Below are positions 4,647 through 7,214 of a DNA stretch of 48,641 bases, piece after piece; within the stretch, counting starts at the first letter, position 1, and the number at the start of each line of letters is the position of its first letter. Made by a program: the position numbers and the translations under genes. This DNA comes from Bacteroidales bacterium (GTDB taxonomy: Bacteria; Bacteroidota; Bacteroidia; Bacteroidales; F082). The stretch is taken from the NCBI GenBank assembly GCA_017381865.1, contig JAFOBJ010000039.1, positions 1 to 48,641 of the forward strand, written 5' to 3'. The notes beneath the pieces were generated by a model. The model did no database searches. It was not told the DNA's origin and was given only the letters and a program-made list of their open reading frames with translations.

Positions 4647-5162
4647 TTATTTTAAATGTCTTATTATTTCTCTTAATGTTTTTTTGAAACGGATAATCGG
4701 ATCGATGAAATAAATATTGTCATCTTCTCCCAACAAAACATTATCGCCAGAAATATCGGTTATTGATACGAATTCATTGCCATATGAATAATTATCTTCT
4801 GGCAACAAACCACGTTCAGCCAGTGAATCAACAACTTGAGTCTTGGTTGGCTGACGATATGACATAATGAAATCCTGTGACAAAACAATACGAACATCGC
4901 CTATGTCATCGCTGATGCCTTCTAATGTATAAGCAGTTTCAGGAAAAAGCAGATTATGTACAAGATGTTCAAAAGCGGCGTCTTCAGCTTGTACTCCTGT
5001 TTTCAATGCCGCTTTGGCATATGGGTCTTTAAACTTTATAACTTTACCTGCTTTCGCATCAATATAAACCACACTCTCTCCTGTACGTTTCTCAACCTTG
5101 CCTGTAAGATTTTTTGATGTTTCAATTGGAACGAACAGACCATGTTGCTTTGCTATGTTCAC
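4647..5162 (-). CDS. Small kinase-like protein of mobile-element (polyvalent) type, copy 1
   Basis: 171 residues from a GTG start that I chose because it overlaps the TGA of the preceding small ORF as GTGA. The frame stays open upstream to 5372, but that part reads as biased R/S/D-rich sequence and lies over the better-looking small ORF. A protein-kinase core is visible: a beta-3-like Lys (GKVIKF, K43), the helix motif LLFPETAYTLEGI, a catalytic loop ITDISGDNVL (D136, N141) and a metal Asp in IYFIDPI (D154). The HRD His is absent. This layout matches the small kinase domains described in polyvalent proteins of phages and conjugative elements. That placement is from memory and the substrate is unknown. 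Its paralogue lies at 5928-6503. Confidence 0.68.
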   Translation of the reverse strand: MNIAKQHGLFVPIETSKNLTGKVEKRTGESVVYIDAKAGKVIKFKDPYAKAALKTGVQAEDAAFEHLVHNLLFPETAYTLEGISDDIGDVRIVLSQDFIMSYRQPTKTQVVDSLAERGLLPEDNYSYGNEFVSITDISGDNVLLGEDDNIYFIDPIIRFKKTLREIIRHLK

Positions 5163-5359
5163 CAGCCTTTCGGATTCTTGGTTGCGTCGAGTTCTCTCGC
5201 TATAATCTGAATATGCCCGATATGAAGTGTCCAGCCCCTCTTCAAACACTCGTAAATCGCTTCTGTCGCTAACGCTCTGTGTCTTTCTGGCTGTGTCATC
5301 AAAAATTCTTGAGCAGTCATACTGCCGTCCTCCATTAGAATATTGTCCAAATTCATCAT
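5159..5359 (-). CDS. Small protein translationally coupled to kinase copy 1
   Basis: 66 residues (ATG at 5359; a second ATG follows directly). Composition is that of a real soluble helical protein: MTAQEFLMTQPERHRALATE, then EAIYECLKRGWTLHIGHIQII and a short basic tail ending GW. The family is not recognised. The stop TGA overlaps the GTG start of the kinase-like gene by 4 bases, the classic arrangement for coupled translation. A promoter-like element (TACTTTTG on the - strand, 5390-5397) sits about 30 bases upstream of the ATG. The second kinase copy is preceded by a small ORF in the same relative frame, which argues against coincidence, although the two small proteins do not obviously resemble each other. 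Confidence 0.6.
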   Translation of the reverse strand: MMNLDNILMEDGSMTAQEFLMTQPERHRALATEAIYECLKRGWTLHIGHIQIIARELDATKNPKGW

Positions 5360-5389
5360 AATTCATATACAATTATCCATTTATTATTA

Positions 5390-5397
5390 CAAAAGTA
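5390..5397 (-). promoter_or_regulatory. Candidate -7 element for module copy 1
   Basis: The - strand reads TACTTTTG, matching TAnnTTTG of Bacteroides-type promoters, about 30 bases before the small-ORF start. No convincing TTTG is seen at the -33 distance. Confidence 0.4.
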
Positions 5398-5473
5398 TTG
5401 AATATATTTTTGCATGAATCATAGTTCTATCAAAAAAGATTTCAACAATATATAATTTAGTAAATATTACATC

Positions 5474-5655
5474 TATATTTGCAATTAAAATTAGGGGTGT
5501 CTCAGACGTTACGGACGTTGTGTGCAGAGTTCTTTAGAGCATTGACACGTTGGGAAACGCCCTTATCAGACATCTCCGTGAGGCTGAAACGCTGCGGTTT
5601 GAAGGATGTCGCAACATCTTGCATGGATCGCGCAATTCTGCAAGATGTTTTTTTG
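5474..5655 (+). ncRNA. Structured leader or small RNA with terminator hairpin
   Basis: A -7-like TATATTTG (5474-5481) is followed by about 165 bases that are GC-richer than the surroundings. The stretch ends in a perfect 11-bp stem, AACATCTTGCA (5613-5623) with TGCAAGATGTT (5639-5649), followed by seven Ts (5648-5654). That is a textbook intrinsic terminator on the + strand. A competing hairpin, GATGT (5605-5609) with ACATC (5614-5618), uses the same left-arm bases, so terminator and anti-terminator forms are mutually exclusive. The 80-residue ORF at 5696 starts 42 bases downstream. It could be an attenuator for that ORF or a stand-alone small RNA. I do not recognise the family, and a weak ORF across it has no protein-like character. 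Confidence 0.45.
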
Positions 5656-5695
5656 TCGGTTGACTGAAGATTGTTGAATCATAGTTTTTATAGAT

Positions 5696-5938
5696 ATGAC
5701 AGAGAGTGTAGAAAAACAAGAACTAAGGAGCATATTAATAGGATTATTACTTGAACTTGGCGAAAAAGAAATTAACATATACATACATATGGCTATAATA
5801 GTAGCATATCGTATAGAACAGGAAATGGTAAATTGGATTGCGACATTTAAAGACAATGCAGACGCGTTGACATTAGAAGCATTTAAAAAACATCTCAATG
5901 AATTGGTCAATGAAGCTGACTTAGGAATCAGTAGTTAA
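5696..5938 (+). CDS. Small hypothetical protein
   Basis: 80 residues with ATG start. Acidic and mostly helical in appearance, with an amphipathic or hydrophobic central stretch (INIYIHMAIIVAYRI) and a helical C-terminal half (NADALTLEAFKKHLNELVNE). Not recognised. It lies between the two kinase modules on the opposite strand, and its last 11 bases overlap the end of kinase copy 2, tail to tail. It is preceded by the terminator-bearing leader at 5474-5655. Codon content looks normal for the window, but the length and lack of a known family keep the call modest. Confidence 0.5.
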   Translation: MTESVEKQELRSILIGLLLELGEKEINIYIHMAIIVAYRIEQEMVNWIATFKDNADALTLEAFKKHLNELVNEADLGISS

Positions 5939-6503
5939 TCGCTTTAAATTCAGCGTCAACAATATAAATGTCGCCATCAATGTCTTTTAGCACATTGCGA
6001 GGTCGCAAGTCAGAAATGAGAATCTCGCCATTGCAATAAGAATATTCTTTAACCTTTTGAAATCCGAGCAGTTTCATATATTCTTCGATATCTTCAGTAG
6101 TCGCATTGTCTGGATTGCATACAGCTCTCTGGCGTATGACAGGATAAACGCTTCTTCCTTCAAAACCTGTAAATCCATATAGTTCGTATGCTGTTTCTGG
6201 GAATGTCTGATTATGTATGGACAATCGTTCAAATAAAGAAACGATATTACCACTATTCATCAGATTATTAACCTTATAGACATAACCTTCAGGTGAAAAA
6301 TAAGTATCATTTTCATTTCCGCTGGGACCTTGCGCTCCGAGTTTGAAAACGTCTGATAAGGAAATCCAGATGTCGTTTTCTTTGGCGTAGCGTTCCGCCT
6401 TGCTTGATTCTATTTCTTGTTCGGATGCAGATGGTTGGATTCTGCCATCAGTTGTTTGGCTCGTTCTGCCGCCTTCTCGCAATCGAATGGCAGCTTCTTC
6501 CAT
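5928..6503 (-). CDS. Small kinase-like protein of mobile-element (polyvalent) type, copy 2
   Basis: The frame is open from 6596. I chose the internal ATG at 6503 (191 residues). A start near the small ORF stop would be a non-standard ATA (ATAG junction at about 6410-6413), which may be a decayed ATG. The kinase core matches copy 1: K in GYVYKVN, FPETAYELYGF, catalytic loop ISDLRPRNVL (Asp and Asn kept, HRD His missing) and metal Asp in IYIVDAE. Over the core the two copies share order and spacing but modest identity, so the duplication is old or they came from different donors. The first 31 codons of this call overlap the small ORF in another frame and may not be translated. Confidence 0.62.
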   Translation of the reverse strand: MEEAAIRLREGGRTSQTTDGRIQPSASEQEIESSKAERYAKENDIWISLSDVFKLGAQGPSGNENDTYFSPEGYVYKVNNLMNSGNIVSLFERLSIHNQTFPETAYELYGFTGFEGRSVYPVIRQRAVCNPDNATTEDIEEYMKLLGFQKVKEYSYCNGEILISDLRPRNVLKDIDGDIYIVDAEFKAINY

Positions 6504-6604
6504 TCTTCCATTTTGCGGAGTTTGCGTTCTGTCGTCATCCTGTGAAATTCGTTCAGATATTTCATTTTGTCGTCCTTTTGTTTTACCTTGGCACATGTTT
6601 TCAA
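6410..6604 (-). CDS. Small protein overlapping kinase copy 2
   Basis: 64 residues from a TTG that overlaps the TGA of the upstream gene remnant (TTGA). An ATG at 6565 would give 51 residues. It is highly charged and helical: MTTERKLRKMEEWKKLPFDC, then EKAAERAKQLMAESNHLHP, ending in TAG. Not recognised. The following kinase frame sits one base back (-1) relative to this ORF, exactly as in copy 1. The stop/start junctions (TTGA upstream, ATAG downstream) suggest a chain of coupled genes. Sequence similarity to the copy-1 small protein is not evident. Confidence 0.5.
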   Translation of the reverse strand: MKTCAKVKQKDDKMKYLNEFHRMTTERKLRKMEEWKKLPFDCEKAAERAKQLMAESNHLHPNKK

Positions 6605-6738
6605 ATGATAAGTATCGGTTTCTCTATAGTTTTACTTTTGTCTTCAAATGGAGCATCATACCATAAATCGAAGTCAGAAGAAAGTTTATCTCTCAATGAC
6701 TTTGCCAATCTTAAACCTCGTCTGTGATAGTCTCTATT
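6601..6738 (-). pseudogene. 3' remnant of an unknown gene upstream of module copy 2
   Basis: 45 codons with good protein character and a proper TGA end: RRGLRLAKSLRDKLSSDFDL, then WYDAPFEDKSKTIEKPILII. There is no ATG, and an in-frame TAA precedes it at 6739-6741. Reading the same frame further upstream gives more plausible residues (LDIDW) broken by stops. It looks like the tail of a decayed gene that once led the operon, or a frameshifted one. The stop overlaps the TTG start of the next small ORF. Function unknown. Confidence 0.45.
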
Positions 6739-6851: not shown

Positions 6852-6859
6852 CAAAGGTA
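6852..6859 (-). promoter_or_regulatory. Candidate -7 element for module copy 2 operon
   Basis: The - strand reads TACCTTTG followed by C, the preferred Bacteroides -7 form. It lies about 115 bases upstream of the gene remnant and points into it. The -33 region is T-rich but not a clear TTTG. Confidence 0.5.
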
Positions 6860-6953
6860 AAAAAATAGGTTTCAGAAAACTCTCATTTTTATATTTTGTT
6901 GAAATCTTTTCTGAAAAAATAAAGTTAGTGCTTATTCAGGACTATCTTTCAAT

Positions 6954-7175
6954 CCACTAATATTTAACCAATTTATTTCGTGATGGTTTCGTGAATTTTC
7001 GTGGATGATAATAACTTTCCACTAATCCGCACTAATATTTAACTAAATTCTTTCGTGAAGGTTTAGTGTTGTTTTCGTGGATGATAATAACTTTCCACTA
7101 ATCCGCACGAATTTTTCACTAATTTATTTCGTGATGGTTTCGTGAATTTTCGTGGATGATAAATTTTCGTGGAAA
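6954..7175. repeat. Tandem array, CCACTAAT/TTTCGTGG family (about 3 units)
   Basis: Units begin with CCAC at 6954, 7019 and 7095 (spacing 65 and 76). Each has the order CCACTAAT, CGCACTAAT or its variant, TTTCGTGA, TTTAGTG or TTTTCGTGG, then GATGATAATAA. The pattern and length match the 73-75 bp array at 26187-27203, so both belong to one dispersed family. No gene is embedded here. The array ends about 40 bases before the tRNA 3' end. The stretch from 6739 to 6953 holds the promoter-like element and otherwise nothing I can name. Confidence 0.75.
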
Positions 7176-7214
7176 ACAAAAAACCTCGATAATCAACGAC
7201 TACCGAGGTTTCTG

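Follow-up and report, generated by a model that had tools for sequence, protein, structure and literature searches.

Kinases of the Kinase-PolyVal family, known from polyvalent proteins, have been proposed to act on host proteins, and stand-alone versions have been reported from Bacteroidetes (Iyer et al., 2017, PMC5512222); its passages on this domain mention no nested partner gene, its main text does not contain the terms "overlapping", "frameshift" or "alternative frame", and "nested" is used there for a hairpin fold. A small protein is encoded beside a shortened kinase in HipBST, where HipS neutralises HipT and is described as the product of a separate upstream gene with a 1-nucleotide (nt) overlap and homology to the N-terminus of HipA (PMC6581861). 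Overlapping genes and nested genes of the comS type are already known: as PMC12915044 presents it, comS is a small functional gene of Bacillus subtilis that overlaps, in a distinct frame, srfAB of a very large operon, the two having been separated by frame-silent stop mutations, and it is a single case, co-transcribed with its host operon. Among the internal overlaps of phages, gene E of phiX174 lies on the same strand wholly within D (PMC8227390). Here we examine the minus-strand kinase region of a 48,641-nt window (the whole stretch of DNA analysed) on contig JAFOBJ010000039.1 of a Bacteroidales bacterium (GCA_017381865.1), in which two Kinase-PolyVal genes each appear to contain a second, small gene, S, in their +1 frame.

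S differs from these precedents in its setting. Whereas HipS is encoded by a separate upstream gene, S of the window is nested and matches no family of the searched libraries; the region has no HipA-type kinase, Kinase-PolyVal alone scoring above the cut-off, and no HipB-like or helix-turn-helix match was found among the six region open reading frames (ORFs) scanned. Unlike that of comS, the nesting of S is kept over five kinase clades, in phages and in chromosomes, and in phages it often comes with its own promoter-like box; unlike E in D, the window type is a cassette of a kinase and its nested partner, found in giant ORFs and in stand-alone genes. We found no report of a nested partner gene for the Kinase-PolyVal family in the literature searched (open-access papers only). 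A kinase family named in 2017 appears to have a conserved second gene within its own coding sequence, one that is missed by a gene caller retaining only the longer frame and that no library searched names. S offers a direct handle on the function of polyvalent kinases and, because selection has maintained it across five clades, is the natural first candidate to test against the kinase. This conserved hidden gene suggests that the kinase comes with its own partner or off-switch, and it becomes possible to test more generally whether giant phage proteins regularly carry other genes in their linkers.

We read each locus as a cassette in which the same DNA encodes two proteins: frame 0 gives a minimal polyvalent-type kinase, and frame +1 gives S (51-66 amino acids, aa), which is nested across the stretch that precedes the kinase domain. 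Kinase copy 1 (4647..5366, minus strand, 239 aa from the ATG at 5366, with a further possible start at TTG 5372) has its domain at about 5183-4683 (minus strand), and its nested gene S1 (5159..5359, minus strand, 66 aa) begins 7 nt past the kinase ATG. Kinase copy 2 (5928..6596, minus strand, 222 aa from the ATG at 6596) has its domain at about 6410-5943 (minus strand) and contains S2 (6410..6565, minus strand, 51 aa), whose conserved start, ATG 6565, lies 31 nt past the kinase ATG; the small ORF in full spans 6604-6410 on the minus strand and includes a part 5' of that ATG. The kinase frame is open across both S1 and S2. An original prediction, made from the sequence of the window, had recognised two minus-strand small ORFs (5359-5159 and 6604-6410), each paired with a kinase ORF in the same relative frame; these are present, the small ORF being in the +1 frame of the kinase. 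It had placed the small ORFs upstream of the kinases, which is incorrect, as the kinase frame runs open through each small ORF from the ATG 7 nt (copy 1) or 31 nt (copy 2) earlier. The exact 7-nt gap between kinase ATG and nested ATG recurs in three stand-alone copies from two clades (window 5366/5359, L115 and L114).

Judged by their sequences, both window kinases are genuine members of Kinase-PolyVal. Both match PF18762 in Pfam (E 1.2e-28 and 3.4e-31; 100.5 and 108.8 bits against a gathering cut-off of 27 bits), which bears out the predicted polyvalent type, and the alignment, read by eye, agrees with the predicted residues: the beta-3 Lys, the catalytic Asp and Asn and the metal-binding Asp are retained and the His of the HRD motif is absent in both copies. 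All 12 aligned kinase proteins stop at most about 35 residues after the invariant metal-binding Asp (D214), having lost the C-terminal subdomain, a feature given for the family in PMC5512222. E95 and Q156, invariant in 12/12 aligned rows, correspond to the Kinase-PolyVal Glu before strand 2 and the Gln ending the N-terminal subdomain, with strand positions inferred; with respect to the family's His-Asp insert feature, both copies have no His at the HRD place. A search of the PDB with the copy-1 kinase profile returned nothing better than E 0.027, which we judged to be chance.

For tests by codon position, loci from 121 profile hits, many of them redundant, were assigned manually to clades A (17), B (22), C (9, including window copy 2) and D (20, including window copy 1), leaving out the distant phage loci L047-L052, L054, L057, L061, L062, L066 and L070. 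Clade E consists of eight of the ten first-listed loci (without L004 and L126), its members chosen by an S motif: two loci from the window's family, five from other families of its class and one sharing only its phylum. At fourfold sites of the kinase frame, the five clades differ at 7-18% in the overlap versus 56-67% in the kinase domain. The counts for A, B, C and D are 278/3028, 700/4144, 37/209 and 191/2601 in the overlap and 3836/6865, 7462/11866, 661/992 and 5450/8222 in the kinase-domain control; for clade E they are 14/159 and 99/161, the control coming from five of the eight sequences. Pairwise differences in clade D at kinase positions 1, 2 and 3 are 0.405, 0.288 and 0.231 in the overlap and 0.293, 0.229 and 0.637 in the kinase domain, and wobble positions in A, B and C differ at 0.212, 0.189 and 0.341 in the overlap versus 0.522, 0.567 and 0.593 in the control. 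The kinase wobble position, which is position 2 of S, is the least variable position of the overlap in C and D and lies far under the control in A-D, while position 3 of S is the most variable in all of A-D. This periodicity in the +1 frame fits protein coding and not RNA structure.

Synonymous resampling that kept the kinase protein gave the same picture: mean +1 identities of 0.276, 0.266, 0.177 and 0.220 under the null compare with 0.704, 0.679, 0.480 and 0.631 observed in clades A, B, C and D (z = 31-82 over the four clades), and the +1 frame is open in 17/17, 21/21, 9/9 and 19/19 loci, against null means of 2.8, 4.0, 1.8 and 7.1. Both frames are open over the overlap in the relatives, with stops in the kinase frame in the exceptions L083, L120, L121 and L009. 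When 314 +1 ORFs of at least 35 aa from 33 giant ORFs were clustered, a link requiring nested identity above frame-0 identity, S1 and S2 were the sole clusters found in at least three loci; two segments of another nested series, S4, were linked to S1. On these comparisons we regard it as nearly certain that the nested S is a real gene.

The outer frame is constrained to different degrees. Fourfold differences in the S frame are 0.232 in clade A, 0.247 in B, 0.460 in D and 0.590 in C, with controls at 0.56-0.67, which points to strong constraint on the outer frame within the overlap for clades A and B, weak constraint for D, the clade of copy 1, and near neutrality for C, that of copy 2. The kinase N-terminus 5' of S is conserved in clades A and B as well. 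In the giant ORFs of phage and prophage relatives the outer frame must be read through S; in the clade of copy 2 it resembles a linker where it overlaps S.

A promoter-like box often precedes S. The motif TAnnTTTG, the -7 element of sigma-ABfr promoters (PMC7366714), stands at most 50 nt 5' of the start of S in 20/30 loci, against the 0.34 predicted by its frequency in the rest of those ORFs; two of the 32 listed loci, L072 and L074, were excluded from this count, their S ORF being fused to an upstream ORF, and in these the box lies about 170-180 nt before the fused ORF. In L046, L080 and L081, the box near S is the sole TAnnTTTG in 7.3-9.4 kb. The boxes near S fall in two phases of the outer frame and are therefore not simply a result of peptide conservation. 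In the window, a candidate Bacteroidota -7 box matching this consensus (PMC7366714) stands before kinase copy 1 and S1 (TACTTTTG, 5390..5397, minus strand). Stand-alone genes of clades A and B have a box at most 80 nt from the kinase ATG in 17/17 and 17/21 cases, raw counts without a background rate in which the kinase ATG of L009 and L029 (one A and one B locus) is misassigned.

Relatives of the cassette occur in bacterial and viral sequences. Among bacterial genomes, counts that take in the window's own genome, PF18762 is present in 43/149 of the family and 12/395 of the phylum, and a relative of S2 (copy 2) turns up at E ≤ 0.01 in 11/149 family genomes. S1 is rare (3/99 genus genomes and 1/395 phylum genomes); further S1 loci came from titled genome records (14 loci, 12 with a Bacteroidota title) and from viral sequences (11 loci). 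When viral sequences were scanned with the kinase alignment, 28 loci emerged; here the kinase usually belongs to an ORF that is well above 1000 codons long and often above 2000, the small ORF sitting inside the giant ORF at the front edge of the kinase domain; the frame of the phage loci usually starts hundreds to thousands of codons 5'. A genome of the window's genus, G107, carries the copy-2 type within a 1239-codon frame cut by a contig end. Copy 1 matches the DNA of L087 and L072 at 73% and 72% over 689 nt beginning at window position 5350, within the first S1 codons, and copy 2 matches L117 at 77% over 448 nt beginning at 6583, just 5' of the S2 ATG. Because homology to phage ORFs begins at or near the start of S, S and the kinase occur as one unit. 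No match was returned by tblastn of copy 2 against collections of phage and plasmid records, of L046 against phage records, or of L080 against phage and plasmid records. L080 is a 2.6-Mb contig titled Staphylococcus sp. MAG (metagenome-assembled genome) with a Bacteroidota-type polyvalent ORF and a -7 box, and its label or binning is doubtful.

S also persists where the kinase has decayed. In clades A-E, all 68 intact kinases checked, whether in giant or in stand-alone genes, are accompanied by an uninterrupted S; the set excludes both window copies and L117, and L108, truncated at a contig end, spans 0.80 of the S profile. Among loci with a broken or missing kinase, 17/21 retain an uninterrupted S covering at least 80% of the profile (L003, L005, L035, L039, L040, L042, L086, L106, L120, L121, L124, L125, L126, L127, L129, L137 and L140, with L039 and L040 probably representing one event); S is partly retained in L138 and absent from L116, L128 and L139. 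These 21 derive from 29 non-intact rows by excluding L034 and L117 (one place, at a contig end), L066-L070 (distant giant ORFs with a partial match) and the duplicates L131-L133, and by adding L120, intact by script but with a stop, and L116, whose 5' part is missing; L141, which matches neither kinase nor S, stands outside the count. S makes up about a quarter of the cassette, and by crude arithmetic the chance of its being spared in 17/17 is roughly 0.01. Its retention in decayed loci is the best evidence for the sign of its effect, suggestive rather than proof.

Comparison of sequences establishes the nesting, the selection on S, the enrichment of the box and the occurrence of S and kinase as one unit, and the following model is built on these. 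In phages, the cassette is embedded in a giant polyvalent ORF, S often having a promoter-like box just 5', and in bacterial genomes it also exists as a stand-alone promoter-kinase-S unit. The kinase would modify proteins of the host, the activity that Iyer et al. (2017, PMC5512222) proposed for polyvalent kinases. S would be made separately, from an internal promoter or by internal initiation, and would bind the kinase and restrain it; as a cis-encoded antitoxin or immunity protein, it could shield the producing or lysogenic cell without needing delivery of its own. Kinase toxicity and neutralisation by S, as in type II toxin-antitoxin systems, we infer from the retention of S in broken loci. 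For the reading as a whole, a cassette of kinase and nested S in which S is probably a cis-encoded inhibitor or immunity partner, we see an even balance of probability; the inhibitory role of S taken singly falls slightly short of that.

A number of results weigh against this reading. One third of the loci (10/30) have no box, the nearest -7-like box 5' of copy 2 (TACCTTTG, 6852..6859, minus strand) is nearly 290 nt from the S2 start and of unsure role, a -33 element at 19-nt spacing, read by eye, occurs only in L075, L078 and L080, and stand-alone clade A and B genes have the box before the kinase ATG and not immediately before S. Sequence pairs share ancestry and their counts are not independent, so that nominal p-values exaggerate the significance, with the direction the same in all five clades. 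An S profile search of eight distant phage kinase loci gave no match, S1 and S2 have no convincing relative in Pfam, NCBIfam or PHROG, and the best PDB hit of the S1 profile (E 0.013, T4 endonuclease V, 29 positions) was judged to be chance, as was the best PADLOC score (0.022, for S1), neither copy convincingly matching a PADLOC model. The S1 and S2 profiles are dissimilar, and the two proteins may therefore do different things. Retention of S in broken loci is partly expected, S being short, and L120, one of the 17 S-retaining loci, lacks the usual ATG.

We weighed four other explanations, two of which concern the architecture. That the +1 ORF is an artefact, held open by codon bias of the kinase frame or by constraint on the DNA for RNA structure, draws on the fact that shuffled outer ORFs average about 1 to 9 +1 ORFs of at least 45 aa among the rows listed; we rejected ORF length as evidence, since synonymous shuffles often yield +1 ORFs of such size and length alone is not significant. 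The resampling null, the substitutions periodic in the +1 codon frame and the open S where the kinase frame has stops (L120, L121 and L009) leave this explanation exceedingly improbable. According to the original prediction, the small gene lies upstream and the kinase is translated from a stop/start junction by coupling. The predicted letters are there (GTGA in copy 1, ATAG in copy 2), and in three of the 66 loci a start codon falls no more than 3 nt from the stop of the small ORF, namely in window copy 1 (GTG), L083 (GTGA) and L085 (TTG). Such a codon is absent from the other 63, including copy 2, whose kinase frame has no ATG, GTG or TTG at the S2 stop, its earlier starts being 6596, 6503 and 6482 and the next, 6260, falling within the kinase domain. 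The nesting is conserved in relatives and the stop/start junction is not, and coupling lacks support as a general rule. Homologues show what the prediction itself had named as evidence against it: they begin in the long upstream frame and have a conserved N-terminal part, as the region 5' of S in clades A and B attests, and in 11/12 clade A loci listed the kinase frame has an ATG 85 nt 5' of the small ATG. We therefore consider coupling very improbable; in copy 1, the GTG of the junction may serve as a secondary kinase start. A TTG start with a TTGA overlap, also predicted for the small ORF of copy 2, is not the conserved S2 start, because relatives align from ATG 6565. The "upstream remnant" there (LAKSLRDKL...) matched, among the compared loci, only those from the window's own contig and was dropped. 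What survives of the prediction is its interpretation as a compact two-protein unit of a polyvalent kinase and a conserved small partner, possibly toxin/antitoxin-like; the architecture it assigned to that unit does not.

The two remaining explanations concern the role of S. It could be a positive cofactor or substrate adaptor, an activating subunit of the kinase and not its inhibitor, since S and kinase are paired in five clades and the data do not tell the sign of regulation; protection better fits the outliving of the kinase by S in broken loci and the promoter-like box that S often has to itself in phage ORFs, and we think a cofactor role unlikely. Somewhat less unlikely is that S, as a phage protein, has a task of its own, for instance in early host takeover or regulation, and merely rides in the linker that precedes the kinase domain: the profiles of S1 and S2 are dissimilar, L086 retains S1 although its kinase domain is replaced, and other nested ORFs (S3 and S4) lie away from the kinase in several ORFs. 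Against a passenger of this kind stand the company that S keeps with every intact kinase checked in clades A-E, stand-alone bacterial copies included, and the start of phage DNA homology at or near the start of S.

The two cassettes of the window look like independent arrivals. In the kinase tree, whose bootstrap is not fully settled, copy 1 groups with L072 (100/84) in clade D and copy 2 with L117, L022 and L023 (98/86) in clade C. Because the copies belong to different clades and have unlike small proteins, local duplication was rejected, and with it the "duplicated module" that had been proposed for them.

Other nested segments occur in giant polyvalent ORFs. A +1 family, S3 (motif A..[YFW]C[LM]), was seen at L044:2550-2765, L045:4648-4863, L073:3710-3931, L077:5921-6151, L079:5837-6088, L095:5798-5998 and others, shortly 5' of S in some and about 1.8 kb behind S in others; in L073 a TAnnTTTG box is followed by S3 and then by S1 in the same frame, an arrangement resembling a nested operon. 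S4, likewise a +1 segment, lies at L072:3806-3990, L074:3755-3990, L078:6821-7030 and L082:5132-5266, fused in frame to S1 in L072 and L074 and separate in L078. Nested identity is well above that of frame 0 in the S3 pair L079/L095 and the S4 pair L072/L078, which are small sets, and the position pattern of the whole S3 set is weak (0.592, 0.518 and 0.599); we treat S3 and S4 as no more than leads. A bolder extension, on which we are doubtful, is that the linkers of giant polyvalent genes in Bacteroidota phages hide a further layer of small out-of-frame genes (S1, S2, probably S3 and S4) with internal promoters, and that the kinase-adjacent ones would be cis-encoded immunity proteins, produced in the lysogen or producing cell and outside the delivered polyprotein; if true, this layer would amount to colicin-immunity logic packed into one stretch of DNA. 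A 412-codon +2-frame ORF in a giant ORF (L077:1734-2969) exceeds all those in 200 synonymous shuffles and may be a composition effect.

The kinase region adjoins a tRNA-Met, beside which lie degenerate tandem repeats of about 75-76 nt each (window 6955-7182), and the kinase ORFs are flanked by genes that we take, from their translations alone, to resemble uvrC and tRNA-dihydrouridine synthase. A 31-nt inverted repeat, 87% complementary, has one arm (window 5425-5455) 5' of the box of copy 1 and the other (6889-6919) 5' of that of copy 2. A protein-like ORF of 80 aa (window 5696-5938, plus strand) is convergent with the second kinase gene and has one relative in 98 other genus genomes, in G107, also home to a close relative of copy 2.

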